IMG/VR virus record: IMGVR_UViG_3300024259_000046
Location: 1 to 52,290 of that record
Reading direction: 5' to 3' (one strand)
DNA: 52,290 nt
Source: a virus
Numbering within the stretch: position 1 is the first letter of the stretch; each line of letters opens with the position of its first letter. The notes under the pieces were generated by a model, which saw only the letters and a program-made list of their open reading frames with translations, was not told where the DNA came from and ran no database searches. Positions 7,632-50,082 of the stretch are shown here, one piece after another. The position numbers and the translations under genes were made by a program.

Positions 7632-7706
7632 GCTCGTATCGTCTAACGACCAAGACACCTGTTTTGTAATCAGGTAATCAGGGTTTGATTCCTTGTATGA
7701 GCTCCA
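7632..7706 (+). tRNA. tRNA-Thr(UGU)
   Basis: Full cloverleaf: acceptor GCTCGTA/TATGAGC, D stem GTCT/AGAC, anticodon loop TTTGTAA, T loop TTTGATT, encoded CCA. U31-U39 mismatch at the base of the anticodon stem. Confidence 0.85.
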
Positions 7707-7710
7707 ATTC

Positions 7711-7800
7711 GGAAGATTGACTGAGTCTGGCTTAAGGTTCCCGTTTTGAAAACGGATGGTGGTCAAACACCCGTGGGTTCGAATCCTACATCTTCCTCCA
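7711..7800 (+). tRNA. tRNA-Ser(UGA)
   Basis: Acceptor GGAAGAT/ATCTTCC, loop TTTGAAA (anticodon TGA), long variable arm typical of Ser, T loop TTCGAAT, encoded CCA. Confidence 0.88.
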
Positions 7801-7804
7801 ATTC

Positions 7805-7890
7805 GGTAGGTTGGCAGAGTGGTAATGCACCCGGTTGCTAACCGGCACGCCGTCAAAGGCGCAGAGGTTCGATCCCTCTACCTACCTCCA
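7805..7890 (+). tRNA. tRNA-Ser(GCU)
   Basis: Acceptor GGTAGGT/ACCTACC, anticodon loop TTGCTAA, long variable arm, T loop TTCGATC, encoded CCA. Confidence 0.88.
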
Positions 7891-7946
7891 TAAGAGAACC
7901 GTGGAACGGGACTGATAACCACATGAAAAACTAATCCCACATATTC

Positions 7947-8021
7947 GATGCTCTGGCTGATTGGTCAGGCACCAGCTTGCAAAGCTGGCACAACTCGGTT
8001 CGATTCCGAGGGGCATCTCCA
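7947..8021 (+). tRNA. tRNA-Cys(GCA)
   Basis: Acceptor GATGCTC/GGGCATC, anticodon stem CCAGC/GCTGG with loop TTGCAAA, T stem CTCGG/CCGAG, discriminator U73 as expected for Cys, encoded CCA. Confidence 0.88.
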
Positions 8022-8025
8022 ATAC

Positions 8026-8113
8026 GTAGTCTACGGGAATGGTTCCCAAGCCGGCTGTAACCCGGCGGCTTCCGAAAGGGGCACAGGTGGTTCGACTCCA
8101 TCCGGCTACACCA
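8026..8113 (+). tRNA. tRNA-Tyr(GUA)
   Basis: Anticodon stem GCCGG/CCGGC with loop CTGTAAC, long variable arm as in bacterial Tyr, T loop TTCGACT, A73 and encoded CCA. The last acceptor pair (7-66) is mismatched. Confidence 0.82.
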
Positions 8114-8121
8114 ATTAGTTG

Positions 8122-8150
8122 TTGACAAGTGTTGACAACAAGAGTAGTAT
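8122..8150 (+). promoter_or_regulatory. Internal promoter in the tRNA array
   Basis: TTGACA, 17-base spacer, TAGTAT, placed so that transcription begins about 10 bases before tRNA-Ala. A second TTGACA lies 10 bases further on. The array is therefore probably read from more than one start. Confidence 0.55.
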
Positions 8151-8166
8151 TAGTTTTAGAAATTAT

Positions 8167-8245
8167 GGGGCATGGGACTGCATGCGGTGGTCACTTGTTT
8201 TGCAATCAAGATATCAGCGGGGTTGGATTCCCTGATGCTCCACCA
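8167..8245 (+). tRNA. tRNA-Ala(UGC)
   Basis: Acceptor GGGGCAT/ATGCTCC includes the G3-U70 pair that marks Ala. Anticodon loop TTTGCAA; U31-U39 mismatch; encoded CCA. Confidence 0.85.
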
Positions 8246-8350
8246 ACGACTTTGACGGTAGTTTGATCGAAAACAATTTACGGAGCTTCTAGACAGACCG
8301 TAAAGAGACGCGCTAGCTTCGAATAGCGCCCCGATAAGGTAAAAAATTAT
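8246..8350 (+). other. Untranslated structured spacer between tRNAs
   Basis: Contains two perfect hairpins: TTTACGG/CCGTAAA (8277-8283 with 8298-8304) and GCGCTA/TAGCGC (8310-8315 with 8324-8329, loop GCTTCGAA). It does not fold as a tRNA. May be a processing element or small RNA. Confidence 0.35.
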
Positions 8351-8424
8351 AGTCCTTTAGTTCAAAAGGAGAACGCCTGTTTTACAAGCAGGATACGAGG
8401 GAGCATTACCTTCAAGGACTACCA
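8351..8424 (+). tRNA. tRNA-Val(UAC)
   Basis: Acceptor AGTCCTT/AAGGACT, D stem GTTC/GAAC, anticodon loop TTTACAA, encoded CCA. The T loop is AGCATTA instead of the usual TTCGAnn. Confidence 0.75.
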
Positions 8425-8430
8425 TATCAA

Positions 8431-8500
8431 GGCCTCGCCGCGAACGGCTGAAAACCCTGACGAGGGGATAATCATGGTTCAATTCCATGAGAGGTTACAA
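8431..8500 (+). pseudogene. Degenerate tRNA-like sequence
   Basis: A good T arm (CATGG/CCATG, loop TTCAATT) and a partial acceptor (GGCCTC/GAGGTT with two G-U) remain. The D and anticodon arms do not form, the length is about 6 bases short, and the 3' end reads CAA instead of CCA. Probably a decayed tRNA. Confidence 0.35.
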
Positions 8501-8503
8501 TAC

Positions 8504-8579
8504 AGAGTGAAAGCAATTGTGGTCAATGCACCTGCTTGAAACACAGGCCAATTCGGTTCGAAACCGGGTCACTCTACCA
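8504..8579 (+). tRNA. tRNA-Phe(GAA)
   Basis: Perfect acceptor AGAGTGA/TCACTCT, D stem GCA/TGC, anticodon loop TTGAAAC, T loop TTCGAAA, encoded CCA. C31-A39 mismatch. Confidence 0.8.
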
Positions 8580-8649
8580 AAAAGCTGTGTGATGGGGTAG
8601 GTCCATCTTGGCGGTTACGGCTACGGCATAACCGGACGGACAAATTAAA

Positions 8650-8721
8650 GCGGCTGGTGTCTGGTGCTCACAGAGGTCTTCCAAACCACTAGTCAGGGTT
8701 CGATTCCCTGTTGCCGCTCCA
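8650..8721 (+). tRNA. tRNA-Gly(UCC)
   Basis: Acceptor GCGGCTG/TTGCCGC, anticodon loop CTTCCAA, T stem CAGGG/CCCTG with TTCGATT loop, encoded CCA. One mismatch in the anticodon stem and one in the acceptor; slightly short. Confidence 0.7.
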
Positions 8722-8810
8722 AGGAATAGGTCGAAAATGAGGGTTTCGAAACCCCTCTCCCGAGCAACAGTCTCGGGGTCGTCTAAAGGCAGGACGTCGG
8801 CCGCGATTAT
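8722..8810 (+). other. tRNA-like spacer, possible D-arm-less Ser(CGA)
   Basis: Hairpins recall a class II tRNA: AGGGT/CCCCT with loop TTCGAAA (would be anticodon CGA), a perfect CCCGAG/CTCGGG arm in the variable-arm position, and CGTCT/GGACG. No D arm and no CCA are seen and the T loop is unusual, so this may be a relic or chance. Confidence 0.2.
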
Positions 8811-8882
8811 GGTGTTTGTTCCTGAGTGGACTCTTCGGCTGTGACCCGAGGAGATTGGGGGCAGTACCCAACATTCACCCCA
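8811..8882 (+). tRNA. tRNA-His(GUG)
   Basis: Has an extra 5' G (8811) opposite C73, the hallmark of tRNA-His. Anticodon stem TTCGG/CCGAG with loop CTGTGAC; T stem TTGGG/CCCAA; encoded CCA. The T loop GGCAGTA is non-canonical and two U-U mismatches lie in the acceptor stem, so standard tools may miss it. It completes the 20-amino-acid set. Confidence 0.6.
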
Positions 8883-8968
8883 ATTAGGTTGAGAAGCCGC
8901 TACCGGCGTCGTTGGCCCGAGTCGTTGCGTAGGCATCCGGAATCGGGTCATATTTTCAAGGCGAAGGC

Positions 8969-9085
8969 ATGCAGTATATTTTTTGGACATGCAAAAGGTG
9001 CGGTAAGAATGTTGGCCCTTGGGTCAAGTTTGTAGAATTTGTTTTTAATACACATCAGCATACGTGTATAAAGTTTCAACTATAG
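8969..9085 (+). CDS. Possible 38-aa zinc-finger micro-protein inside tRNA array
   Basis: ATG at 8969 preceded by AAGGCGAAGG. The product carries C-K-R-C near residue 8 and T-H-Q-H-T-C near residue 28, i.e. C-x2-C ... H-x-H-x-C, a plausible zinc site, with aromatic residues between. The stop overlaps the first bases of tRNA-Asn. The ribosome site is very close to the ATG and there is no homology evidence, so confidence is modest. Confidence 0.35.
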   Translation: MQYIFWTCKRCGKNVGPWVKFVEFVFNTHQHTCIKFQL

Positions 9086-9159
9086 TATTGTCGTCTAACT
9101 GGTAAGACGCCGGTCTGTTAAACCGGAAAATGTAGGTTCGAATCCTACTGATACTGCCA
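9084..9159 (+). tRNA. tRNA-Asn(GUU)
   Basis: D stem GTCT/AGAC, anticodon stem CCGGT/ACCGG with loop CTGTTAA, T loop TTCGAAT, G73 and encoded CCA. Confidence 0.88.
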
Positions 9160-9168
9160 ATTCAGAGC

Positions 9169-9242
9169 GGGTCAATGGTGTAGTGGTAACATAGATGCCT
9201 CCAAACCATTTGACTGGGGTTCGATTCCTCGTTGGCCCGCCA
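9169..9242 (+). tRNA. tRNA-Trp(CCA)
   Basis: Acceptor GGGTCAA/TTGGCCC, anticodon loop CTCCAAA, T loop TTCGATT, discriminator G73 as expected for Trp, encoded CCA. C31-C39 mismatch. Confidence 0.78.
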
Positions 9243-9340
9243 GATATACTTGGGTAAGGGTCTACAAGTCGTGCGGTGATCACGTTAAAACGCCCGAGGG
9301 TGGTGCGGCGAACCTCGCAAAAAACCGCTCCCCAAATTAT
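9243..9340 (+). other. Structured spacer between tRNA-Trp and tRNA-Met
   Basis: Contains CGAGG/CCTCG and GTGATCAC dyads and a loose TTGGG...CCCAA closing pair. It does not resolve into a cloverleaf. No gene seen. Confidence 0.3.
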
Positions 9341-9414
9341 TGCGGTGAGAATTGGTAATTCAACCACGGCTCATATCCGTGGCTCCGCGGGTTCAATTCC
9401 CGTCGCCGCTACCA
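9341..9414 (+). tRNA. tRNA-Met(CAU) (or Ile-CAU)
   Basis: Anticodon stem CACGG/CCGTG with loop CTCATAT, D stem GAAT/ATTC, T loop TTCAATT, encoded CCA. The first acceptor pair is a U-U mismatch, recalling initiator tRNA, but the three G-C pairs of initiators are absent from the anticodon stem. CAU could also be a lysidine-modified Ile tRNA. Confidence 0.75.
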
Positions 9415-9497
9415 ACATAGGGTGTAGTATTAATTAAATACGTTCGGGAAATCGAGTACCGGAAGATGTGGGCCAAACCCCTCCACCCCAGAAATAC
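9415..9497 (+). other. Spacer between tRNA-Met and tRNA-Asp
   Basis: Eighty-three bases without a convincing tRNA or reading frame. Its ends (GGTGTAG ... CTCCACCCCA) loosely resemble an acceptor stem plus CCA, so it may be a decayed tRNA. Confidence 0.25.
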
Positions 9498-9571
9498 GGC
9501 TTTATAGCTTAATGTAAAGCACCATCCTGTCAAGATGGGAGACACGGTATCGATCACCGTTAAGGCCGCCA
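9498..9571 (+). tRNA. tRNA-Asp(GUC)
   Basis: Acceptor GGCTTTA/TAAGGCC, perfect anticodon stem CCATC/GATGG with loop CTGTCAA, G73 as expected for Asp, encoded CCA. Confidence 0.88.
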
Positions 9572-9631
9572 TACGCAATGCATTAGAGAGTTGGGCTGGC
9601 TCTAGTGGGCGAAACTGGTCCACCAAATTAA

Positions 9632-9705
9632 CGCGGTGTCTTCTAATGGCAAGAAACCCGGCCGATAACCGGGCAACGAAGGATCGATACCTTCCACTGC
9701 TACCA
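9632..9705 (+). tRNA. tRNA-Ile(GAU), with C33
   Basis: Perfect anticodon stem CCCGG/CCGGG; the loop CCGATAA gives anticodon GAU but has C at position 33 where U is nearly universal. T stem GAAGG/CCTTC with loop ATCGATA. The first acceptor pair is mismatched. Encoded CCA. Confidence 0.72.
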
Positions 9706-9713
9706 AATAGTGA

Positions 9714-9792
9714 TGTTGGTTCGTTCAAAATGGACTAAGGATACTGGGCTTTGAACCCGGTGATGTGGGTTCGAGTCCCACACCGACTTCCA
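9714..9792 (+). tRNA. tRNA-Gln(UUG)
   Basis: Anticodon stem CTGGG/CCCGG with loop CTTTGAA, T stem GTGGG/CCCAC with TTCGAGT, acceptor GTTGGT/ACCGAC, encoded CCA. The first acceptor pair is U-U, as often weak in Gln. Confidence 0.82.
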
Positions 9793-9800
9793 AAATAAAT

Positions 9801-9877
9801 GCTCCTCTAGCCCAATTGGCAGAGGCACCCGGCTTAGACCCGGTCCAGTGAGGGTTCGAATCCTTCGGGGAGTACCA
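9801..9877 (+). tRNA. tRNA-Leu anticodon (UAG), short variable arm
   Basis: Acceptor GCTCCTC/GGGGAGT, loop CTTAGAC, T loop TTCGAAT, A73, encoded CCA. The variable region is only about 5 bases, unlike normal Leu tRNAs. Shares its body with the next two tRNAs. Confidence 0.82.
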
Positions 9878-9881
9878 ATAC

Positions 9882-9958
9882 GCTCGTGTAGCCCAATTGG
9901 AAGAGGCGACTGGCTCAAACCCAGTTGGTTGAAGGTTCGAATCCTTCCATGAGTACCA
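9882..9958 (+). tRNA. tRNA-Leu anticodon (CAA), short variable arm
   Basis: Acceptor GCTCGTG/CATGAGT, anticodon stem ACTGG/CCAGT with loop CTCAAAC, variable region TGGTT, A73, encoded CCA. Class I shape despite a Leu anticodon. Confidence 0.84.
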
Positions 9959-9959
9959 A

Positions 9960-10036
9960 GCTCTTCTAGCCCAACTGGTAGAGGCAGGCGCCTTAAAAGC
10001 GCCAAAGTGTAGGTTCGAATCCTACGAGGAGTACCA
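9960..10036 (+). tRNA. tRNA-Leu anticodon (UAA), short variable arm
   Basis: Acceptor GCTCTTC/GAGGAGT, anticodon stem GGCGC/GCGCC with loop CTTAAAA, variable region AAAGT, A73, encoded CCA. Separated from the preceding CCA by a single base. Confidence 0.84.
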
Positions 10037-10042
10037 AATTAC

Positions 10043-10122
10043 GTCACTGTCTTCTAAACAAGGACTAGGAATCTGGGTTTTCACCCCGGACAATGCGGGT
10101 TCGAGCCCCGTCAATGACCCCA
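10043..10122 (+). tRNA. tRNA-Glu(UUC)
   Basis: Anticodon stem CTGGG/CCCGG with loop TTTTCAC, T stem GCGGG/CCCGT with TTCGAGC, encoded CCA. One acceptor mismatch and C73 instead of the usual G. Confidence 0.8.
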
Positions 10123-10128
10123 ATTAAC

Positions 10129-10204
10129 GCCCTGTTAGTTCAACTGAACAGAGCACTTGGCTACGAACCATGAAATGCGGGTTTGAATCCTGCACAGGGC
10201 TCCA
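10129..10204 (+). tRNA. tRNA-Arg(ACG)
   Basis: Perfect acceptor GCCCTGT/ACAGGGC, anticodon loop CTACGAA, T loop TTTGAAT, encoded CCA. Its first 34 bases are identical to those of the Arg(UCU) gene at 10427. Confidence 0.86.
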
Positions 10205-10251
10205 AATTATGACAACTTCAACTCAAAAGACTAAACACGGCGACAAATTAT

Positions 10252-10328
10252 GCCTCCGTGGTGAAATTGCGTATCACATCGGTCTTTTAAACCGTAAGTT
10301 GCAGGTTCGAGTCCTGTCGGGGGCACCA
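10252..10328 (+). tRNA. tRNA-Lys(UUU)
   Basis: Perfect acceptor GCCTCCG/CGGGGGC with G-U, D stem GTG/CAC, anticodon stem TCGGT/ACCGT with loop CTTTTAA, A73, encoded CCA. Confidence 0.88.
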
Positions 10329-10345
10329 ATAGCTTAAGGAGACGA

Positions 10346-10420
10346 CCTCCTGTAGCTCAATGGCAGTAGCACCGGCCTTATAAGCCGGCGACCTTGGATC
10401 GTAACCAAGCAGGAGTACCA
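10346..10420 (+). tRNA. tRNA-Ile(UAU)
   Basis: Perfect anticodon stem CCGGC/GCCGG with loop CTTATAA, T stem CTTGG/CCAAG with loop ATCGTAA, A73, encoded CCA. First acceptor pair mismatched. Confidence 0.85.
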
Positions 10421-10426
10421 AATTAC

Positions 10427-10502
10427 GCCCTGTTAGTTCAACTGAACAGAGCACCGGGTTTCTACCCCGGGGATACGGGTTTGAATCCTGTACAGGGCCC
10501 CA
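10427..10502 (+). tRNA. tRNA-Arg(UCU)
   Basis: Acceptor and D arm identical to Arg(ACG) at 10129; perfect anticodon stem CCGGG/CCCGG with loop TTTCTAC; C73; encoded CCA. Looks like a duplicated tRNA with a changed anticodon arm. Confidence 0.86.
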
Positions 10503-10508
10503 TAATAA

Positions 10509-10586
10509 CTGTGAGTAAGTCAGTCTGGCCAGACGACCCGCTTTGGAAGCGGGGGGACGCAGGTTCGAATCCTGCCTCGCAGACCA
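10509..10586 (+). tRNA. tRNA-Pro(UGG)
   Basis: Acceptor CTGTGAG/CTCGCAG, perfect anticodon stem CCCGC/GCGGG with loop TTTGGAA, T stem GCAGG/CCTGC with TTCGAAT, A73, encoded CCA. Last tRNA of the array. Confidence 0.88.
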
Positions 10587-38353: not shown

Positions 38354-38372
38354 CTTTAAAACGGAGAAACGT

Positions 38373-38987
38373 ATGAGCGAACTAACGGCAGACGAGACAG
38401 CAGGACTAACGGTAACATTTGGCGACTACTTAAAGCCAGCGCGTATTTCCTACGCGAAAATCTTTCAACCGGAGAAGAACGACCTCTCTGGTAAAGACGA
38501 GTATTCCGCAATGTTCTTGATCGACAAGGACAACACAGTTGTATTGGACGCTTTAGAAAAAGCTATCGATGCGGCTATCAAGAAAGAATGGGGAGACGAC
38601 CGCCCCGCACGACTTCGTATCCCTCTCCGGGACGGAGACAAGGACGGCCCGGGCGGTGTTCCGGAAAGTGCTACTGCCGGTGCAGAACCCTACGGTGGAC
38701 ACATGTTTATCAACGCGAAGAACGGGTACAAACCCGACGTTCGTGACCAGAAGTCAAACATCATCCTCGACCCACACGCTATCGTGTCCGGTGATTATGT
38801 TCTCGCTTCGGTCAAAGCATGGGCCTACGACAACAAGTCTAAAGGGGTATCATTCAGCCTGAATGGTATCCAACTGGTTCGTAAGGGCGACCCACTGGGT
38901 AACTCTTTTGACGGATCAAAAGTCTTCGGGAAAATCCCTGTTGCGGCAGACGTCGCCGGCAGTGATCTTGACTCGATGATGAAATAG
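38373..38987 (+). CDS. DUF2815 ssDNA-binding protein
   Basis: 204 aa from ATG 38373 (GGAG upstream; an earlier in-frame ATG at 38337 lies inside the previous gene). V-T-F-G-D-Y-L-K-P-A-R-I-S-Y-A-K-I-F and E-Y-S-A-M-F-L-I-D-K open an OB-fold; G-H-M-F-I-N-A-K near 110 and Y-V-L-A-S-V-K-A-W-A-Y near 142 match the DUF2815 family, described as phage SSB-like. The tail ends with an acidic D-L-D-S-M-M-K, like SSB protein-interaction tails. Confidence 0.8.
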   Translation: MSELTADETAGLTVTFGDYLKPARISYAKIFQPEKNDLSGKDEYSAMFLIDKDNTVVLDALEKAIDAAIKKEWGDDRPARLRIPLRDGDKDGPGGVPESATAGAEPYGGHMFINAKNGYKPDVRDQKSNIILDPHAIVSGDYVLASVKAWAYDNKSKGVSFSLNGIQLVRKGDPLGNSFDGSKVFGKIPVAADVAGSDLDSMMK

Positions 38988-39282: not shown

Positions 39283-39401
39283 TAGCTTTATTTGGTGCCG
39301 TCGTTTCAAGTATTCTGTACGTTGGCATAGATCATGCATGGAAAAGTTACCAGAAGGACAAACGAAAACAAAAACGAAAGGATAAAAAAGGCGATGTTTA
39401 A
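39276..39401 (+). CDS. Small membrane protein, basic tail (41 aa)
   Basis: ATG 39276 overlaps the previous gene's end. N-terminal hydrophobic helix (L-I-A-L-F-G-A-V-V-S-S-I-L-Y-V-G) then a very basic tail (K-D-K-R-K-Q-K-R-K-D-K-K), positive-inside topology. GGGGGGCGG precedes ATG. Its end overlaps the SPFH start by 8 bases, so it is likely coupled to it. Confidence 0.5.
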   Translation: MLIALFGAVVSSILYVGIDHAWKSYQKDKRKQKRKDKKGDV

Positions 39402-40644
39402 AAAATTAGGTATTTACGGAACAGGTATAGGTTTGATCTTTGTATTTTTCTTCGGCTCACAACTCTTGTCCACGGTGGAGAAGGGGACGTTCGAAGTCAG
39501 GCAGTTCCCGGTAACGGGTACGATTGATGTCCGCAACACCCCCGGAACATGGTGTAAGTGCTTCGCGACTCTGGACATCTGGAAGAAATCAAAGACGTTC
39601 AAGTTTGATGGGAAAGAACACTCACTCCTACCCGTCCGGTTTAATGACGGGTCGGCCTCGCATGTCAAAGGTGAAGTACGGGTAGAGTTCCCATCCTCAT
39701 TGAGCGCAGTCAATAACTTCCTGGAAATGGGTTACGCTAACCAGCATGATGTTATGGAACGGTTGGTCTACCCCCACTTGCTACGGGTTATGCGCTTACA
39801 GGGGAACTTCATGACCGCTAAGGAATCTTACAACCAGAAGCGGCCGGACTTTGACAGTAACTCTTTCGACCAGTTGCAGTTTGGTGTATATAAAACTAAG
39901 ACCCAGACCGTAACAGAGAAAGACATCATGACCGGTGAAGATAGAACGAGGGAATTTAAGATCGTTCTATATGGTGAAGACGGAGAACCTCTCCGTGAAC
40001 AGAACCCACTGGAAGGCACGGGTATTACTTTCAACGCTTATGTTATTGAGAGTATCAAATACCCTGATGTTGTGAACGAACAGATTGAAGCTCAGCGTAA
40101 AGCCATCATGGAAGTTGAGACTGCTATCGCCGAAGCTAAGAAGTCCGAGCAGGATGCTAAGACTATCAAGATGGAAGGTGAAGCCAAAGTTATGACAGCC
40201 CGGTACGAGAAAGAACAGGAGAAAGTTCGGGCTACTGTTGAAGCGGAGAAACGTAAACAAGTAGCAACACTGGACGCTGAAAAACGACTGGACGTTGCGA
40301 AGCTTGACAAACTGGCCGCAGAACAGTATAAAGAAGAGCAGATTTTGAAGGGGCAAGGTGAAGGTGAGCGTAAGAAGTTGGTTATGCAAGCTGACGGAGC
40401 TCTTCAACAAAAGCTTGCCGCTTGGGTTGATGTTAACACCAAGTACGCCGCGGCTATTAAGGGTTTTCAAGGCGACTGGGTTCCAAGGTTGGTCATGGGT
40501 AACACCGGTGAAGGCAAAGGCGCATCCGCCAGTCCGGCCAATGACCTGATAAGTCTGTTTACAGCGAAGACTGCCGGAGATATTTCATTGAGCATGGATA
40601 TCCCACGTAGTAATCACAAGCATAAAACAGATTTAACCAAGTAG
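39394..40644 (+). CDS. SPFH/Band-7 (prohibitin-like) membrane protein
   Basis: 416 aa from ATG 39394 (AAAAAAGGCG upstream; in-frame ATG at 39334 would lie within the previous small gene). One N-terminal transmembrane helix (G-I-G-L-I-F-V-F-F-F-G-S), an SPFH-type beta domain to about 220, then a long Ala/Glu/Lys coiled coil (V-E-T-A-I-A-E-A-K-K-S-E-Q) to about 340 and A-A-I-K-G-F-Q-G-D-W-V-P. Family proteins (HflK/C, stomatin, prohibitin) form large membrane rings and control proteases. In a phage it could reshape the host membrane or guard against host proteolysis; inference only. Confidence 0.75.
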   Translation: MFKKLGIYGTGIGLIFVFFFGSQLLSTVEKGTFEVRQFPVTGTIDVRNTPGTWCKCFATLDIWKKSKTFKFDGKEHSLLPVRFNDGSASHVKGEVRVEFPSSLSAVNNFLEMGYANQHDVMERLVYPHLLRVMRLQGNFMTAKESYNQKRPDFDSNSFDQLQFGVYKTKTQTVTEKDIMTGEDRTREFKIVLYGEDGEPLREQNPLEGTGITFNAYVIESIKYPDVVNEQIEAQRKAIMEVETAIAEAKKSEQDAKTIKMEGEAKVMTARYEKEQEKVRATVEAEKRKQVATLDAEKRLDVAKLDKLAAEQYKEEQILKGQGEGERKKLVMQADGALQQKLAAWVDVNTKYAAAIKGFQGDWVPRLVMGNTGEGKGASASPANDLISLFTAKTAGDISLSMDIPRSNHKHKTDLTK

Positions 40645-40654
40645 GAAAACTGTT

Positions 40655-40670
40655 GGGGCCTTCGGGCCCC
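40655..40670 (+). terminator. UUCG hairpin after SPFH gene
   Basis: GGGGCC - TTCG - GGCCCC, perfect 6-bp stem. No clear T-run follows (GCTTAACTT), so it may only attenuate or protect the RNA end before the prs-like gene. Confidence 0.5.
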
Positions 40671-40691: not shown

Positions 40692-41522
40692 ATGATATTC
40701 CTAAACAAAGAACCTGTAGAGACACACAAATTCAGCGGCGGAGAATGCCATGTCAAACTCCCCGTTCCTTATCATAAAGAAGAAGCACACATCGACGCAT
40801 GTCTGTATAACTCCGATGATATTATGTCGTTGATGATGACTGTAGATGCGCTTCGACAGATCAATGGAATGATGAAGATCAATGTCACCATACCTTACTT
40901 CCCCTACGCTAGACAGGACAGGGTGTGTGAACCCGGCGAAGCTTTCAGCTTAAAAGTAATGGCTGACCTGATCAACTCTCTTAAGGTGGACAGCGTGGTA
41001 GTCATTGACCCGCACTCCAAAATGACACCGAGTCTTTTAGATAACTGTATGGTGTATGATCAACATGCTTGTGTTACAACACACATGTGGCACATGCTAC
41101 GTAACACAGACACCACACTTGTAGCACCTGATGAAGGCGCAAAAGAGAAGACTTTAAATTTGGCCTGTGATTTGGGCGTAGATTATATCACCTGCACAAA
41201 AGTCAGAGACACCAAGACCGGTGATATAACTAAAACATATGTCCCGCAAGGTAACCCGACTAGGAACTACATGATCATCGATGATATATGTGATGGGGGG
41301 AGAACTTTCATAAATATCGCAAATATTCTAATGGAAGATGGCGTACCAAGAAAAAACTTGTCTTTGTACGTGACCCATGGTATATTTTCGAACGGCTTTG
41401 CAGAACTGGTAAGCCGATTTGAAAAACTTTATTGTTATCATCTGTTCCCGAACGTGGATACACACACCTTACCGTTCGGTTACTTAACCGTATTCAAGGG
41501 AGAAAAAAGCTATGTTCATTGA
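40692..41522 (+). CDS. PRPP-synthetase-like enzyme (Prs/Adps)
   Basis: 276 aa, shorter than usual bacterial PRPP synthases (about 315). I-P-Y-F-P-Y-A-R-Q-D-R near 68-78 is the ATP-binding motif, and Y-M-I-I-D-D-I-C-D-G-G-R-T-F near 192-205 is the phosphoribosyl-binding loop. It transfers pyrophosphate from ATP to a ribose 5-phosphate end: ribose-5-P (making PRPP) or, in the phage Adps branch, ADP-ribose. It overlaps a NAMPT-like gene by 11 bases, so the products probably act in series to make NAD+ or NMN. The substrate cannot be fixed by reading the sequence. Confidence 0.85.
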   Translation: MIFLNKEPVETHKFSGGECHVKLPVPYHKEEAHIDACLYNSDDIMSLMMTVDALRQINGMMKINVTIPYFPYARQDRVCEPGEAFSLKVMADLINSLKVDSVVVIDPHSKMTPSLLDNCMVYDQHACVTTHMWHMLRNTDTTLVAPDEGAKEKTLNLACDLGVDYITCTKVRDTKTGDITKTYVPQGNPTRNYMIIDDICDGGRTFINIANILMEDGVPRKNLSLYVTHGIFSNGFAELVSRFEKLYCYHLFPNVDTHTLPFGYLTVFKGEKSYVH

Positions 41523-42990
41523 CCCATTTGCGTGTACAGATTTCTATAAGATAGGCCACATCAAACAGTACCCCAAACGTACTGAAATGGTTTACTCCAA
41601 TATGACTGCGCGGGATAGTTCTCACGCCAACACTATCTTCGGTGATAAGTTTGTAATCAACTTCGGATTGCAGTATGTTATCCAGAAGTTCTTGGTGGAA
41701 GACTGGAACCAGAACTTCTTCGACCGACCGGAAGAGGAAGTTGTCGCCCGGTACGAACGACGTATCAGTGCTACTCTGGGTGAGCCTCATGCAGATTCCA
41801 CCCATGTACGGGCCTTACACAAGCTCGGTTACCTGCCTATCCTGATAAAGGCTCTACCCGAGGGGGCAAGAGTACCTGTTGGGGTTCCTCTGTTCACCAT
41901 TCAAAACACCGAGCCCGAGTTCTTCTGGTTGACCAACTTCTTAGAGACAGCGTTGTCCGGCTTCTTGTGGAAGCCCATAACTTCTGCAACAATGGCTTAT
42001 GAATACCGCAGACTGTTTGATCAGTATGCAGAGGAGACAGGTGGGGACAAAGAGTTCGTTCCTTTCCAAGGGCACGACTTCTCCTTCCGTGGTATGTCCA
42101 ACGTGGAAGACGCCGCGTTAAGCGGAGCCGCTCACTTGACAAGCTTCGTAGGGACTGACTCTATCATTGCTATCGACCTACTGGAACAATACTATCAAGC
42201 TGATGTCACCAAAGGTTTAGTCGGGTGTTCTGTGCCGGCCACGGAGCATTCTGTAATGTGCATGGGCGGTGAGTTGGACGAGAAGGCTACGTTCGAACGC
42301 CTGATCGGTGAGTTGTACCCCGCTGGTATCGTTTCCATTGTGTCTGACACTTGGGACTTCTGGAAAGTTGTCACCGAAACTCTGCCGGAATTGAAGTACA
42401 AAATTCTGGAGCGTGATGGTAAACTTGTCATCAGACCAGACAGCGGCGACCCGGTTAATATTATTTGTGGTGATCTTGGCGCGAAAAGAGGAAGCCCAGA
42501 ATTTAAGGGGTTGATCGAATGTCTTTGGGATACCTTCGGAGGGGAGACAAACGAGAAGGGTTATAAGAAACTAGACTATCACATAGGAGCCATCTACGGT
42601 GACGCTATCAATCTGGTACGGGCCGAAGATATTATGCGCAGGTTAGCGGACAAAGGATTTACTTCCGACAACGTTGTGTTAGGTATTGGTTCCTTTACAT
42701 ACCAGTACGTGACGAGAGACACACATGGGTTTGCTATTAAATCTACCGCCGGGCAGTTGGACGGTGAAATTGTAGAGATATTCAAAGACCCGAAGACAGA
42801 CAGTGGTATTAAGAAGTCCGCCAAGGGTCTACTGCGTGTGTCTAAGAACCAGCAACGGAAGTATGAACTGCACGATCAACAAACACCAGACGAAGAGAAG
42901 GAAGGTGAGTTGAAGACCGTGTTTATTAACGGCGAACCCTTCAACCGCTGGTCTCTTGAAGATATCAGGGAGCGTATCGCTAATGGTTAA
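41512..42990 (+). CDS. Nicotinamide (phospho)ribosyl transferase-like, NAMPT/Namat
   Basis: 492 aa, the length of human NAMPT (491). D-F-Y-K-I-G-H near residue 10, H-D-F-S-F-R-G-M near 186, V-G-T-D-S near 212, and S-V-P-A-T-E-H-S with His246 in the catalytic His position. R-P-D-S-G-D-P near 308 and A-I-Y-G-D near 360 complete the phosphoribosyl site. Joins nicotinamide to PRPP (giving NMN) or, as Namat, to ADP-ribose-pyrophosphate (giving NAD+ directly). Paired with the Prs-like gene; no NMN adenylyltransferase was seen in the window, which favours but does not prove the direct NAD+ route. Confidence 0.9.
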   Translation: MFIDPFACTDFYKIGHIKQYPKRTEMVYSNMTARDSSHANTIFGDKFVINFGLQYVIQKFLVEDWNQNFFDRPEEEVVARYERRISATLGEPHADSTHVRALHKLGYLPILIKALPEGARVPVGVPLFTIQNTEPEFFWLTNFLETALSGFLWKPITSATMAYEYRRLFDQYAEETGGDKEFVPFQGHDFSFRGMSNVEDAALSGAAHLTSFVGTDSIIAIDLLEQYYQADVTKGLVGCSVPATEHSVMCMGGELDEKATFERLIGELYPAGIVSIVSDTWDFWKVVTETLPELKYKILERDGKLVIRPDSGDPVNIICGDLGAKRGSPEFKGLIECLWDTFGGETNEKGYKKLDYHIGAIYGDAINLVRAEDIMRRLADKGFTSDNVVLGIGSFTYQYVTRDTHGFAIKSTAGQLDGEIVEIFKDPKTDSGIKKSAKGLLRVSKNQQRKYELHDQQTPDEEKEGELKTVFINGEPFNRWSLEDIRERIANG

Positions 42991-45034
42991 GACTCACTTC
43001 GACTTCGAGACCTACTCGGAAGCTGACATAAGGAAGGTCGGGGCGTGGGCGTATTCAATACACCCATCGACCCGAGTCCTTTGTGCGGGGTACGCTCATA
43101 ATGACGAGCCCCCACAGTTGTGGGTGCCCGGACAGGAGATGCCCAAGTTTCTTGTGGCTCCGTGCACACACGATCAGTTCCATGCTTGGAACAGTTTCTT
43201 CGAGTGGGCTATCTGGAAGAACGTTTTGAAGACCCACATGCCTCCGCTTGTACAGTGGTATGACACGGCGGCTTTGTCCAGTGCCATGGCTTTGCCTCGT
43301 GCGCTAGGGTATTGCGGCGCGGCGCTTGGTGTGTCAGAAGACAAAGCCAAGAGCAGACGCGGGTACGAACTCATTAAACTTTTGAGCAAGCCAAACAAGA
43401 TGAACGACAACCCGGCTCTGCTTAAAGAGATGTATGCATACTGCATGCAGGATGTTGTTGCGGAACGTGAGTTGTCAAAGAAACTGTTCGACCTGAACCC
43501 AACAGAAAGGAAAGTGTTCATCCTCGATCAGAAGATCAACACAACAGGTATCGCATTGGATGTTGAGTCAGTTGACAACGCGATTGAAGTTTATGGTCAC
43601 GCCTATAATTCACTGATGGAATCGCTGAAAGATTTGACCGGCCTCGACAACCCGAACAGCGCGATACAATTTTTCAATTGGTTGACGAGTAAAGGTCACA
43701 TCATAGATAACGTTCAGAAGGCTACTCTGCAAGCACTGTTGAATCTGGAAGACAAATACAATACACATACCGCAATCCGGATGCGCATGAAGCTGGCAAA
43801 AGCGGCCCCTAAGAAATATTCGGCTATGCGCGACAGGGTAGGGAACGGGACTCGTTTACATGGAAACACAATGTATCATGGTGCCTCTACGGGCCGTTGG
43901 GCTTCGACTGGTGTGAACCTGCAGAATATCGCCCGGCCAACGGTAGACGCTGATGAATCAATCGCCCTGATAAACACGACAGAGCCGGCAATATTCGATA
44001 TGCTGGATATGGACCCGATGGAAGCTCTAAGTAGCTCTATAAGGGGTATGCTGATACCCTCTAAGGGGAAAAAGTTCATTATAGGGGATTACGCGAGCAT
44101 CGAATCCCGGGCTTTGGCGTGGTTGGCTGGTCAGGAGGATAAACTGGAAGTTTTCAGGGGCCACGGTAAAATATACGAGCACGTTGCCGCGAAAATCTAT
44201 AACATATATTCTGAACACGGGCAAAACGCCATTGAACTTGTTACACAACCACAGCGTTTCGTTGGAAAAATTGGAGAATTAGCCTGCGGCTTCGGCGGGG
44301 GCGCCGGGGCAATTACCGGTATGGCCAAAATCTACAAAGTTGACATGACAAAGCCGGAAGCCGAAAAAATCAAAAATGACTGGAGAGCAGAAAACCCGGA
44401 AATATGCCAATTCTGGAAAACAGCAGAAAACGCCGCCGCTTCGGCAGTGGCCCACCCGGGCGAAGTGTTTCAAGCCGGTCGGGTGAAGTTTATGGTCGCT
44501 CACAACTTCTTATGGTGTCAGTTGCCTTCTGGTAGGCGTCTTGCTTACCACAGGCCTTTTATCAAGGTAGAGACCGTGACTTTGATCAAGGTGCCGGCCA
44601 CAGAGGACGAGGGAGGCTATAATATCATGTATAGCCCCCACGAGTACACCAAAGAGGAGTTTAAGGCCCTAGCGGACGCTAAGGGGCTCACAGTGGAGAG
44701 TTTCGACGCCCCGACGATATATTTCTGGGGTACGGACTCACAAACCCGAAAATGGCGTGTACACTCCACATACGGTGGGAAACTGGTTGAGAACATTACA
44801 CAGGCTGTGGCGAGAGATTTGATGGCAGAATCTATGTTAATTTTGGACGATATGGGGTATAATATAGTTTTGACCGTTCACGACGAAATCATCTCGGAGG
44901 TTCCCATTGACACACCCCACGACGAACAATACTCAGTTGAAGAGTTCACCACACTTATGGAGACAACCCCAACATGGGCAGATGGTCTTCCCGTTCGTGT
45001 TGAAGCGTACGAAGCCACGAGGTACAGAAAATGA
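42983..45034 (+). CDS. DNA polymerase I family, phage replicative polymerase
   Basis: 683 aa from ATG 42983 (GGGAG upstream), overlapping the NAMPT-like gene by 8 bases. Proofreading exonuclease: H-F-D-F-E-T-Y near 5-11, W-N-S-F-F-E near 70, Y-C-M-Q-D-V near 151-156. Polymerase: G-R-W-A-S-T-G near 302, motif A G-D-Y-A-S-I-E-S-R near 366 (family A usually has D-Y-S-Q-I-E), motif B R-F-V-G-K-I-G-E-L-A-C-G-F-G near 420, motif C V-H-D-E near 632. Resembles the DpoZ-type polymerases of phages with modified adenine as well as other podovirus PolA proteins. No 5'-3' exonuclease domain. Confidence 0.93.
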   Translation: MVKTHFDFETYSEADIRKVGAWAYSIHPSTRVLCAGYAHNDEPPQLWVPGQEMPKFLVAPCTHDQFHAWNSFFEWAIWKNVLKTHMPPLVQWYDTAALSSAMALPRALGYCGAALGVSEDKAKSRRGYELIKLLSKPNKMNDNPALLKEMYAYCMQDVVAERELSKKLFDLNPTERKVFILDQKINTTGIALDVESVDNAIEVYGHAYNSLMESLKDLTGLDNPNSAIQFFNWLTSKGHIIDNVQKATLQALLNLEDKYNTHTAIRMRMKLAKAAPKKYSAMRDRVGNGTRLHGNTMYHGASTGRWASTGVNLQNIARPTVDADESIALINTTEPAIFDMLDMDPMEALSSSIRGMLIPSKGKKFIIGDYASIESRALAWLAGQEDKLEVFRGHGKIYEHVAAKIYNIYSEHGQNAIELVTQPQRFVGKIGELACGFGGGAGAITGMAKIYKVDMTKPEAEKIKNDWRAENPEICQFWKTAENAAASAVAHPGEVFQAGRVKFMVAHNFLWCQLPSGRRLAYHRPFIKVETVTLIKVPATEDEGGYNIMYSPHEYTKEEFKALADAKGLTVESFDAPTIYFWGTDSQTRKWRVHSTYGGKLVENITQAVARDLMAESMLILDDMGYNIVLTVHDEIISEVPIDTPHDEQYSVEEFTTLMETTPTWADGLPVRVEAYEATRYRK

Positions 45035-47913: not shown

Positions 47914-49164
47914 ATGCCTATCAAACAAGTAATCCATAACAAAGACACAAGCGTACCGGTAAAAATCTGGACTGATGATCTTGACGACAAAACGTTAGCA
48001 CAACTCCAAAATCTCACTACCTTACCTTTTGTCCACAAGCATGTTGCCGTTATGCCAGACGCCCATCTGGGTATCGGGTGTACCATTGGGACTGTCTTGC
48101 CTACTTACAAAGCGATCATCCCGGCGGCGGTGGGAGTTGACATTGGTTGTGGTATGTCCGCAATCAAAACGAACCTCCATGCTAACGATCTGCCGGAGTC
48201 AATGACGGAAATTCGTCAGAAGATTGAACGCGCTGTACCAACCGGTTTCCGCGGTCATACCGAGGATTTGGAACTGGACTTCGAACACAACCTGATGCAG
48301 TTCGCTAACAGACGTTTCGATCCGATGGCGTTGTTCGCATCACAATCTGTTGTCAATTATTTCTTCAAACAAAATGACCCGGAAGAAGTTTTCGAGATTA
48401 AAGCTAAGAACTGGAGAGCACAACTTGGTTCGCTGGGCGGGGGCAATCACTTTATTGAGATTTGTTTAGACGAGAACGATGATGTCTGGGTAATGATCCA
48501 CAGTGGTTCCCGCGGTGTGGGGAATACCATTGGGCGTACGTTCATCCAACGGGCGAAGGAAGATATGATCAAACATCATATCACCAACTTGCCTGATGTT
48601 GACCTGTCGTACCTGTCAGAAGGAACTGACAACTATGACGAGTATATCGAGGCTGTCAGTTGGGCTCAGGAGTACGCAAAATTGAACAGACGGGTGATGC
48701 TAACCCTCATATTCAAAGAACTGGCGCACTTCTTCCCAACGGTTGCTGTCAAGGATGGTGCGTTCGATTGCCATCATAACTATGTCACGATGGAGAATCA
48801 TTATGGAAAAAACGTATGGGTTACGCGTAAAGGCGCAATTCGTGCCCGGGAAAACGACATGGGGGTCATACCCGGTTCAATGGGGGCCCAGTCGTTTATC
48901 GTACGAGGGAAGGGGAATCCGGAGGCGTTTCACTCTTGTTCCCATGGAGCAGGTCGTAAAATGTCTAGACGGGAAGCAATGCGCCTGTTTACTCTGGAAG
49001 ACGTTCGGGATCAAGTAGGTGACGTCAATATGGACCTCAGAAAAGGTTTCATCGACGAAGCCCCGGGCTCGTATAAAGATATTGCCACCGTGATGGAGAA
49101 TCAGGACGATTTGGTATCAATTGTGCATACATTAAAACAGATTGTTAATATCAAGGGGGACTGA
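47914..49164 (+). CDS. rtcB: RNA-splicing ligase RtcB
   Basis: 416 aa, near E. coli RtcB (408). V-A-V-M-P-D-A-H-L-G-I-G near 46, G-V-D-I-G-C-G-M near 74 (metal-binding Asp/Cys), L-G-G-G-N-H-F near 170, H-S-G-S-R-G-V-G near 190, and C-S-H-G-A-G-R-K with His344 as the GMP acceptor. It joins 2',3'-cyclic phosphate ends to 5'-OH ends using GTP and Mn2+, the ends left by anticodon nucleases and toxins. With the tRNA array and the RNA ligase at 49402 this points to tRNA repair. Confidence 0.95.
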   Translation: MPIKQVIHNKDTSVPVKIWTDDLDDKTLAQLQNLTTLPFVHKHVAVMPDAHLGIGCTIGTVLPTYKAIIPAAVGVDIGCGMSAIKTNLHANDLPESMTEIRQKIERAVPTGFRGHTEDLELDFEHNLMQFANRRFDPMALFASQSVVNYFFKQNDPEEVFEIKAKNWRAQLGSLGGGNHFIEICLDENDDVWVMIHSGSRGVGNTIGRTFIQRAKEDMIKHHITNLPDVDLSYLSEGTDNYDEYIEAVSWAQEYAKLNRRVMLTLIFKELAHFFPTVAVKDGAFDCHHNYVTMENHYGKNVWVTRKGAIRARENDMGVIPGSMGAQSFIVRGKGNPEAFHSCSHGAGRKMSRREAMRLFTLEDVRDQVGDVNMDLRKGFIDEAPGSYKDIATVMENQDDLVSIVHTLKQIVNIKGD

Positions 49165-49436
49165 TGAAAACATTTATATTTACTTTGCTGGGTCTTGCTA
49201 TTGTGGTCCCGGCGTATTTTCTTATTGACATGCAACGCAACCCCGGGCCCACTATGGCCGTGGAGGCCGACGAAGGTTTTAAGTGTAAAGTGCTTTACAA
49301 ATACCCGAAAGTGTGGCAATGTAGACATGAAAACGGATCGAACTTTTTGGTCGATCTGTACCTCACTCACAACGGCGTCGCCGTTATAGGAGAACAAGGC
49401 AATGGAAGACTACAAGAAGTTCCCAAAGATCGCTAG
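49164..49436 (+). CDS. Membrane-anchored or exported small protein (90 aa)
   Basis: N-terminal hydrophobic helix (F-I-F-T-L-L-G-L-A-I-V-V-P-A-Y-F-L-I) then a domain with K-C-K-V-L-Y and W-Q-C-R-H, two Cys that could pair in the periplasm. Overlaps rtcB by one base and the RNA ligase start by 35 bases. Unknown function. Confidence 0.5.
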   Translation: MKTFIFTLLGLAIVVPAYFLIDMQRNPGPTMAVEADEGFKCKVLYKYPKVWQCRHENGSNFLVDLYLTHNGVAVIGEQGNGRLQEVPKDR

Positions 49437-50082
49437 GCTAAACAAGCCTATCGTAATCACTGAAAAACTCGATGGTACAAATGCCCAAGTCGTAATCGGC
49501 GAGGATATGTCCGTTCGTGCGGGTAGCAAGAACCGTTGGCTCACCCCCGGCAAAGAGGACAACTACGGCTTCGCCGCGTGGGTTGAAGAAAACGAAGAGC
49601 AGTTGAAAGAACTCGGACCCGGGAACCACTGGGGGGAATGGTGGGGAGAAGGGATTCAACGGAACTATGGTATGGAACGTAAAGTTTTCAGTCTGTTTAA
49701 CACGGACAAATGGCTTGACGATGTTATGCGTCCAGACTGTTGTGATGTTGTACCGGTGCTGTGGACTTGTGAAGAATTTAGTTCAACTATCATCTGGCGC
49801 GCAATGGAAGATTTGCAGTTACGTGGCAGTGAAGCGGCTCGGAAGTATAGCATCGATTTTGCATCTCCAGAGGGTGTAGTGGTATTCCACACTGCCGCGA
49901 ACTTGTGCTTCAAAGTTCCCTTCGAAGAAACTCACAAGTACGAGAAGAAACAGAAGAACAAAAGTACGCACAAAGGTAACAAAGGCGACCGCAGAGTCAA
50001 GTTTGATGTGCTCGGGATGCCACAAGCGGGAGACCCGGGTAAGGCTCCCATTGATCGAAGAGCAAAAGAACACGTTTATTAA
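49402..50082 (+). CDS. RNA ligase (ATP-type, Rnl2-like)
   Basis: 226 aa, a minimal nucleotidyltransferase domain. Motif I T-E-K-L-D-G-T-N with catalytic Lys near 22; motif Ia A-G-S-K-N-R near 40; motif III V-F-S-L-F-N near 97; motif IV P-E-G-V-V-V near 168; motif V C-F-K-V near 181. It seals 5'-phosphate/3'-OH RNA ends, the reaction RtcB does not do, so the two ligases cover different breaks. No kinase-phosphatase partner is seen nearby. Starts after the shared module AGGAGAACAAGGCA. Confidence 0.88.
   Translation: MEDYKKFPKIARLNKPIVITEKLDGTNAQVVIGEDMSVRAGSKNRWLTPGKEDNYGFAAWVEENEEQLKELGPGNHWGEWWGEGIQRNYGMERKVFSLFNTDKWLDDVMRPDCCDVVPVLWTCEEFSSTIIWRAMEDLQLRGSEAARKYSIDFASPEGVVVFHTAANLCFKVPFEETHKYEKKQKNKSTHKGNKGDRRVKFDVLGMPQAGDPGKAPIDRRAKEHVY

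Follow-up and report, generated by a model that had tools for sequence, protein, structure and literature searches.

The DNA analysed here (the window) carries two overlapping genes, one encoding a Prs-like and the other a NAMPT-like protein, that very probably constitute a NARP1 operon, judging by their sequences. The Adps-Namat interpretation, first put forward in the first-pass annotation, is supported by a clamp motif in the NAMPT-like protein, the trees of both proteins, the phosphate loop of the Prs-like protein, and the absence of an NMN adenylyltransferase. The strongest support, ranking above the PRPP-synthase tree and the missing adenylyltransferase, comes from the selectivity-clamp signature of Namat, which is found in none of six NAMPTs. 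The window is the entire IMG/VR record IMGVR_UViG_3300024259_000046 (52,290 bases), which is classed as linear and may be a fragment. Features of NARP1 used for comparison were taken from PMC12774641, PMC11559045, and PMC13232231. The pair and its immediate neighbors are arranged as follows:

39334..40644, + strand: SPFH/Band 7-domain protein (PF01145, E=6e-6; phrog_11908, E=1e-33), just upstream of the pair
40692..41522, + strand: Adps-like gene (ADP-ribose pyrophosphate synthetase), 276 amino acids, ATG start (TIGR01251, phrog_619)
41512..42990, + strand: Namat-like gene (nicotinamide ADP-ribose transferase), 492 amino acids, ATG start, catalytic His246
42983..45034, + strand: DNA polymerase family A gene (PF00476, E=1e-19), downstream neighbor of the Namat gene

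The 11-base overlap between the Prs-like and NAMPT-like reading frames that had been claimed is borne out by these coordinates. The Prs-like enzyme is short, as had also been noted, with 276 residues compared to 315 in E. coli Prs.

In the proposed mechanism, the NADase of a host defense system would split NAD+ into ADP-ribose and nicotinamide. Adps would then move pyrophosphate from ATP onto ADP-ribose to generate ADPR-PP, and Namat would exchange the pyrophosphate of ADPR-PP for nicotinamide, yielding NAD+ directly without passing through NMN or an adenylyltransferase. By homology to tested pairs, the pair in the window most likely makes NAD+ and counters NADase-based defense. The homologous pairs of SPbetaL1 and Paenibacillus foliorum convert ADP-ribose and nicotinamide into NAD+ and shield cells against systems that deplete NAD+ (PMC12774641). 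ICP1 NrsAB defeats the SIR2-HerA system Nezha (PMC11559045), and NAD+ synthesis in vitro has been shown for the DyoEdafos enzymes. Because Namat retains activity with PRPP and nicotinamide in vitro (PMC12774641), the pair could also feed a side route through NMN.

The NAMPT-like protein matches NCBIfam NF006629 (E=8e-172) and phrog_448 (E=2e-198). Its best matches in the PDB are 9w5x and 9w5w (556 bits), as compared to 239 bits for Xanthomonas NAMPT and 233 bits for mammalian NAMPT. The 9w5x/9w5w sequence is 100% identical to the gene of phage SPbetaL1, whose Namat is the protein crystallised in PMC12774641. That study defined a Namat motif, GSX-phi-X-phi-X-phi-TRD, in which the aromatic residues at positions 3 and 7 grip the adenine ring. 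The sequence GSFTYQYVTRD in the window is an exact match to this motif, and its adenine-contacting residues are Phe395 and Tyr399; the NAMPTs compared carry Ala or Gly and Lys, Gln, or Glu at these two positions. Of the 20 residues in contact with nicotinamide or NAD+ in the SPbetaL1 structure, the window protein retains 19. The catalytic core is likewise kept: Phe190, Asp216, and Arg308 are the equivalents of Phe189, Asp215, and Arg306, and His246, singled out in the first-pass annotation, is indeed the catalytic histidine (SVPATEHSVM). In one viral Namat (L078:1284-3215), several hundred residues resembling an intein are inserted immediately before the catalytic Thr-Glu-His of this segment (SVPA...TEHSVM). 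The residues discussed here and below for the NAMPT-like protein are encoded at:

41617..41628, + strand: codons of the variable clamp loop, Ser36-Ser37-His38-Ala39, located by alignment to SPbetaL1 Namat
42688..42720, + strand: codons of the Namat clamp helix, GSFTYQYVTRD, amino acids 393–403, aligned to SPbetaL1 Gly390-Asp400

A broader form of the motif (GS-aromatic-x-aromatic-xxx-[TS][RC]D) is present in 72 of 74 sequences of the Namat clade and in none of the six NAMPTs. Membership of that clade does not by itself entail the motif, because one member, the NAMPT-named structure 9ke8, lacks the clamp aromatics (GAQTYQRNTRD). Quick, under-searched trees gave AU tests that did not reject forcing the window proteins to their outgroups at the clade base. 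Such tests do not decide membership, because, when a tree has no root, placement with the outgroup is equivalent to a basal position within the clade; these trees were therefore replaced by smaller, careful ones for both the NAMPT-like and Prs-like proteins. The careful tree of 33 NAMPT-like proteins contains a 100/100 branch with the six NAMPTs on one side and the window protein together with all reference Namats on the other, and the window protein did not cluster with the mammalian, Xanthomonas, or KVP40-like enzymes. Deep branching within the Namat clade, including the position of the window protein among Namats, is poorly resolved. These results support assignment of the predicted protein to the Namat family.

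The Prs-like protein matches TIGR01251 (E=2.5e-39, above the cut-off of that model) and phrog_619 (E=4e-84); like those of the NAMPT-like protein, these matches are well beyond chance level. Its relatives are annotated as ribose-phosphate pyrophosphokinase. It keeps the catalytic motifs of PRPP synthases, including FSGGE, ARQDR, the histidine of PHS, and the K-x-R of the flexible loop. The difference lies in the loop that in PRPP synthases binds ribose 5-phosphate (R5P):

41280..41309, + strand: codons of the Adps-type phosphate loop, DDICDGGRTF, amino acids 197–206, located by alignment with wV8 Adps and E. coli Prs

This loop, which reads DDMIDTGGTL in E. coli Prs, is the same in the window protein as in the Adps of Felixounavirus wV8. 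Alignment of the Prs-like protein with Adps and PRPP synthases had been proposed as a check, and the window loop differs from those of all six PRPP synthases examined (E. coli, Legionella, Burkholderia, human, and two archaea). The canonical form, DDxx[DS]T[GCA]GT, occurs in all six of these enzymes, in 0 of 73 Adps-like rows of the alignment, and not in the window protein. The loop change may create space for the AMP moiety of ADP-ribose. Clustering with PRPP synthases, which had been named as an outcome that would overturn the interpretation, was not seen: in the careful Adps tree, the six PRPP synthases split off at 100/100 with the window protein outside, and the latter joins four viral Adps-like proteins, each with a Namat partner, at 99/95. 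Deep branching inside the Adps clade is poorly resolved. Loop and tree together support the view that the Prs-like protein is a member of the Adps family.

The pair was compared with known systems. SPbetaL1 NARP1 (OQ921341; 9w5w, 9w5x) shares with the window the order Adps then Namat, touching genes, the clamp sequence GSFTYQYxTRD, and the residues that contact NAD+; identity is about 55% for Namat and 29% for Adps. The Adps loop of SPbetaL1 reads DDLSSFGGTF as opposed to DDICDGGRTF, and Arg40 of its Namat is replaced by Ser37-His38. NrsAB of Vibrio phage ICP1 (PMC11559045) likewise combines a Prs-like with a NAMPT-like enzyme from these families, with 53% (Namat) and 38% (Adps) identity to the window proteins and an Adps loop of DDICDGAASF. 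The NARP1-type pair of wV8, in which the Adps loop is identical to that of the window and the clamp aromatics are likewise present, is 43% (Namat) and 37% (Adps) identical; its Namat is longer and has Lys-Trp in the clamp loop. Namat of another Felixounavirus, Bas63, was modelled in PMC12774641. We rejected MZ501106 as the Bas63 sequence since this record is Bas43, and wV8 was used as the Felixounavirus reference. NadV of KVP40-like phages and the Xanthomonas and mammalian NAMPTs have the NAMPT fold and catalytic core in common with the window protein, but they have no clamp aromatics, with sequences such as GGALLQK in their place.

The Namat clamp is located at the dimer interface. Its loop is variable, and the residue that stacks on adenine is typically Arg, Lys, or Tyr at the third position; the residue that follows stacks when it is Lys or Tyr (PMC12774641). 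The sole non-identical residue among the 20 NAD+ contacts falls in this loop, where Arg40 of SPbetaL1 stacks on adenine and the window protein has Ser37 followed by His38. His38 might stack on adenine instead. That the window Namat holds adenine by a different loop and prefers ADPR-PP over PRPP less strictly, making it a broader NAD+ rescue enzyme, is a speculative reading that we regard as doubtful.

The window phage is an uncultured podophage far from any isolate. Podophage-type genes in the window encode a terminase, a major head protein, a head-tail adaptor, and a protein resembling tail tubular protein B; the nearest tail tubular proteins are those of Pelagibacter phages (about 38–45% identity). 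An array of 20 tRNA genes occupies positions 7632-10586 of this 52-kb podophage record. No DNA-level match was found among 50,697 phage records with 20 kb of the window as query, and no close relatives of the window Prs-like, SPFH, or polymerase proteins were confirmed in the viral contigs searched.

The pair follows a gene for a ssDNA-binding protein (38370-38987) and the SPFH gene and precedes the polymerase gene. The Namat stop codon overlaps the ATG of polymerase A (42983; junction CTAATGGTTAA), which joins the pair to a third gene, and the polymerase gene is probably co-transcribed with it. Purine-rich stretches resembling ribosome-binding sites lie upstream of both starts (AAAGGCG for Adps and AGGGAGAAAAAAG for Namat). 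Between the SPFH and Adps genes, a GC-rich hairpin with a TTCG loop and without a T run (GGGGCCTTCGGGCCCC, positions 40655-40670) is a possible processing or attenuation site. Phages of Vibrio, Bacteroides, and Aeromonas encode remote relatives of the SPFH/Band 7 protein; the nearest one (35%) is found in the 462-kb uncultured phage LR756500. In Clostridioides phage phiCDKH02, a DUF2815 gene directly abuts the polymerase gene, whereas the SPFH gene and the pair intervene in the window; this comparison points to a possible insertion as a cassette.

This setting raises the question of whether NARP1 chemistry mainly serves to keep NAD+ high during replication, for nucleotide and RNA-repair metabolism, and less as a countermeasure to defense. 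The overlap with a DNA polymerase gene, the position in the replication region, and the presence of genes for two RNA ligases, one of them RtcB, a few kb downstream (47914-50082) are consistent with such a role. However, known NARP1 pairs counter NADase defenses, and NrsAB of ICP1 is costly when the host lacks a NADase (PMC11559045), which argues against a general metabolic benefit; we consider this explanation unlikely. RtcB and an RNA ligase likewise flank the Adps-Namat pair of Pseudomonas phage HHBS36_1 (L091), and RtcB is found near the pair in three further loci (L019, L039, and L068).

Namat and Adps genes are closely associated across viral genomes. With the NAMPT-like protein as query, we fetched 80 related viral loci, 79 of which are of the Namat type, and an Adps-like gene is present in the fetched DNA of 74 of these 79, usually immediately upstream. 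Of the five loci without one, four are contig-end pieces and the fifth is L014. At four phage loci of the NAMPT type (L077, L084, L085, and L090), no Prs-like neighbor was found within the fetched DNA, unlike the arrangement in the window. Neither the 52,290-base record nor any of eight related records, all of which may be fragments, contains a match to the NMN adenylyltransferase family (PF01467).

The absence of that enzyme from the window, which the first-pass annotation had used as an argument for direct NAD+ synthesis, thus stands for the record as sequenced, but it carries little weight by itself, because the sequence may be incomplete and chromosomal Adps-Namat pairs often adjoin a NadM-type gene. 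A genome scan with an Acinetobacter relative recovered 80 loci, nearly all with the clamp motif and an Adps-like gene, in which a NadM-type gene follows the pair across Acinetobacter. An Adps-Namat pair therefore does not depend on an NMN adenylyltransferase being missing, and finding that enzyme does not rule the pair out. The first-pass argument loses force by this, but the conclusion stays the same. The conserved Adps–Namat–NadM-type operon occurs in chromosomes of Acinetobacter and other bacteria (L083:2093-5310 and L099-L178; L083 looks chromosomal despite being filed as a phage). Its Namat clamp reads GSFTYNYLTRD and its Adps loop DDICDGGATF, and its genes are usually annotated as Prs, nicotinate phosphoribosyltransferase, and NMN adenylyltransferase/ADP-ribose pyrophosphatase. 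The arrangement suggests a direct route from ADP-ribose to NAD+ beside the classical one.

Ordinary nicotinamide salvage offers another explanation, in which a true PRPP synthase supplies an NMN-making NAMPT and an NMN adenylyltransferase from the host or an unsequenced part of the phage completes NAD+. Prs and NAMPT are the names given by family models and annotations, Namat can use PRPP in vitro, and the NadM-type gene beside chromosomal relatives would fit such a route. Even so, we judge it very unlikely: the Prs-like protein falls outside the clade of PRPP synthases and does not carry their R5P loop, the clamp aromatics of Namat are present, the phage NAMPT loci we read lack a Prs-like neighbor, and the 52-kb record has no NMN adenylyltransferase. 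Decay or inactivity of the pair is less probable still, since both genes have full-length frames, each preceded by a stretch resembling a ribosome-binding site, and the catalytic residues are intact, although loss is common, as illustrated by the broken nrsB of most ICP1 isolates (PMC11559045).

NARP1 has already been described; the window pair is a further member, from a new phage lineage, and its clamp loop is slightly varied. It provides a well-supported NARP1 pair, joined to a polymerase gene, in a podophage lineage that is uncultured and distant from phages in culture. The Namat clamp motif and the Adps phosphate loop together form a working sequence test that distinguishes NARP1 from ordinary Prs/NAMPT annotations. 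The conserved Acinetobacter pair beside a NadM-type gene makes a direct ADP-ribose-to-NAD+ route in these bacteria testable.
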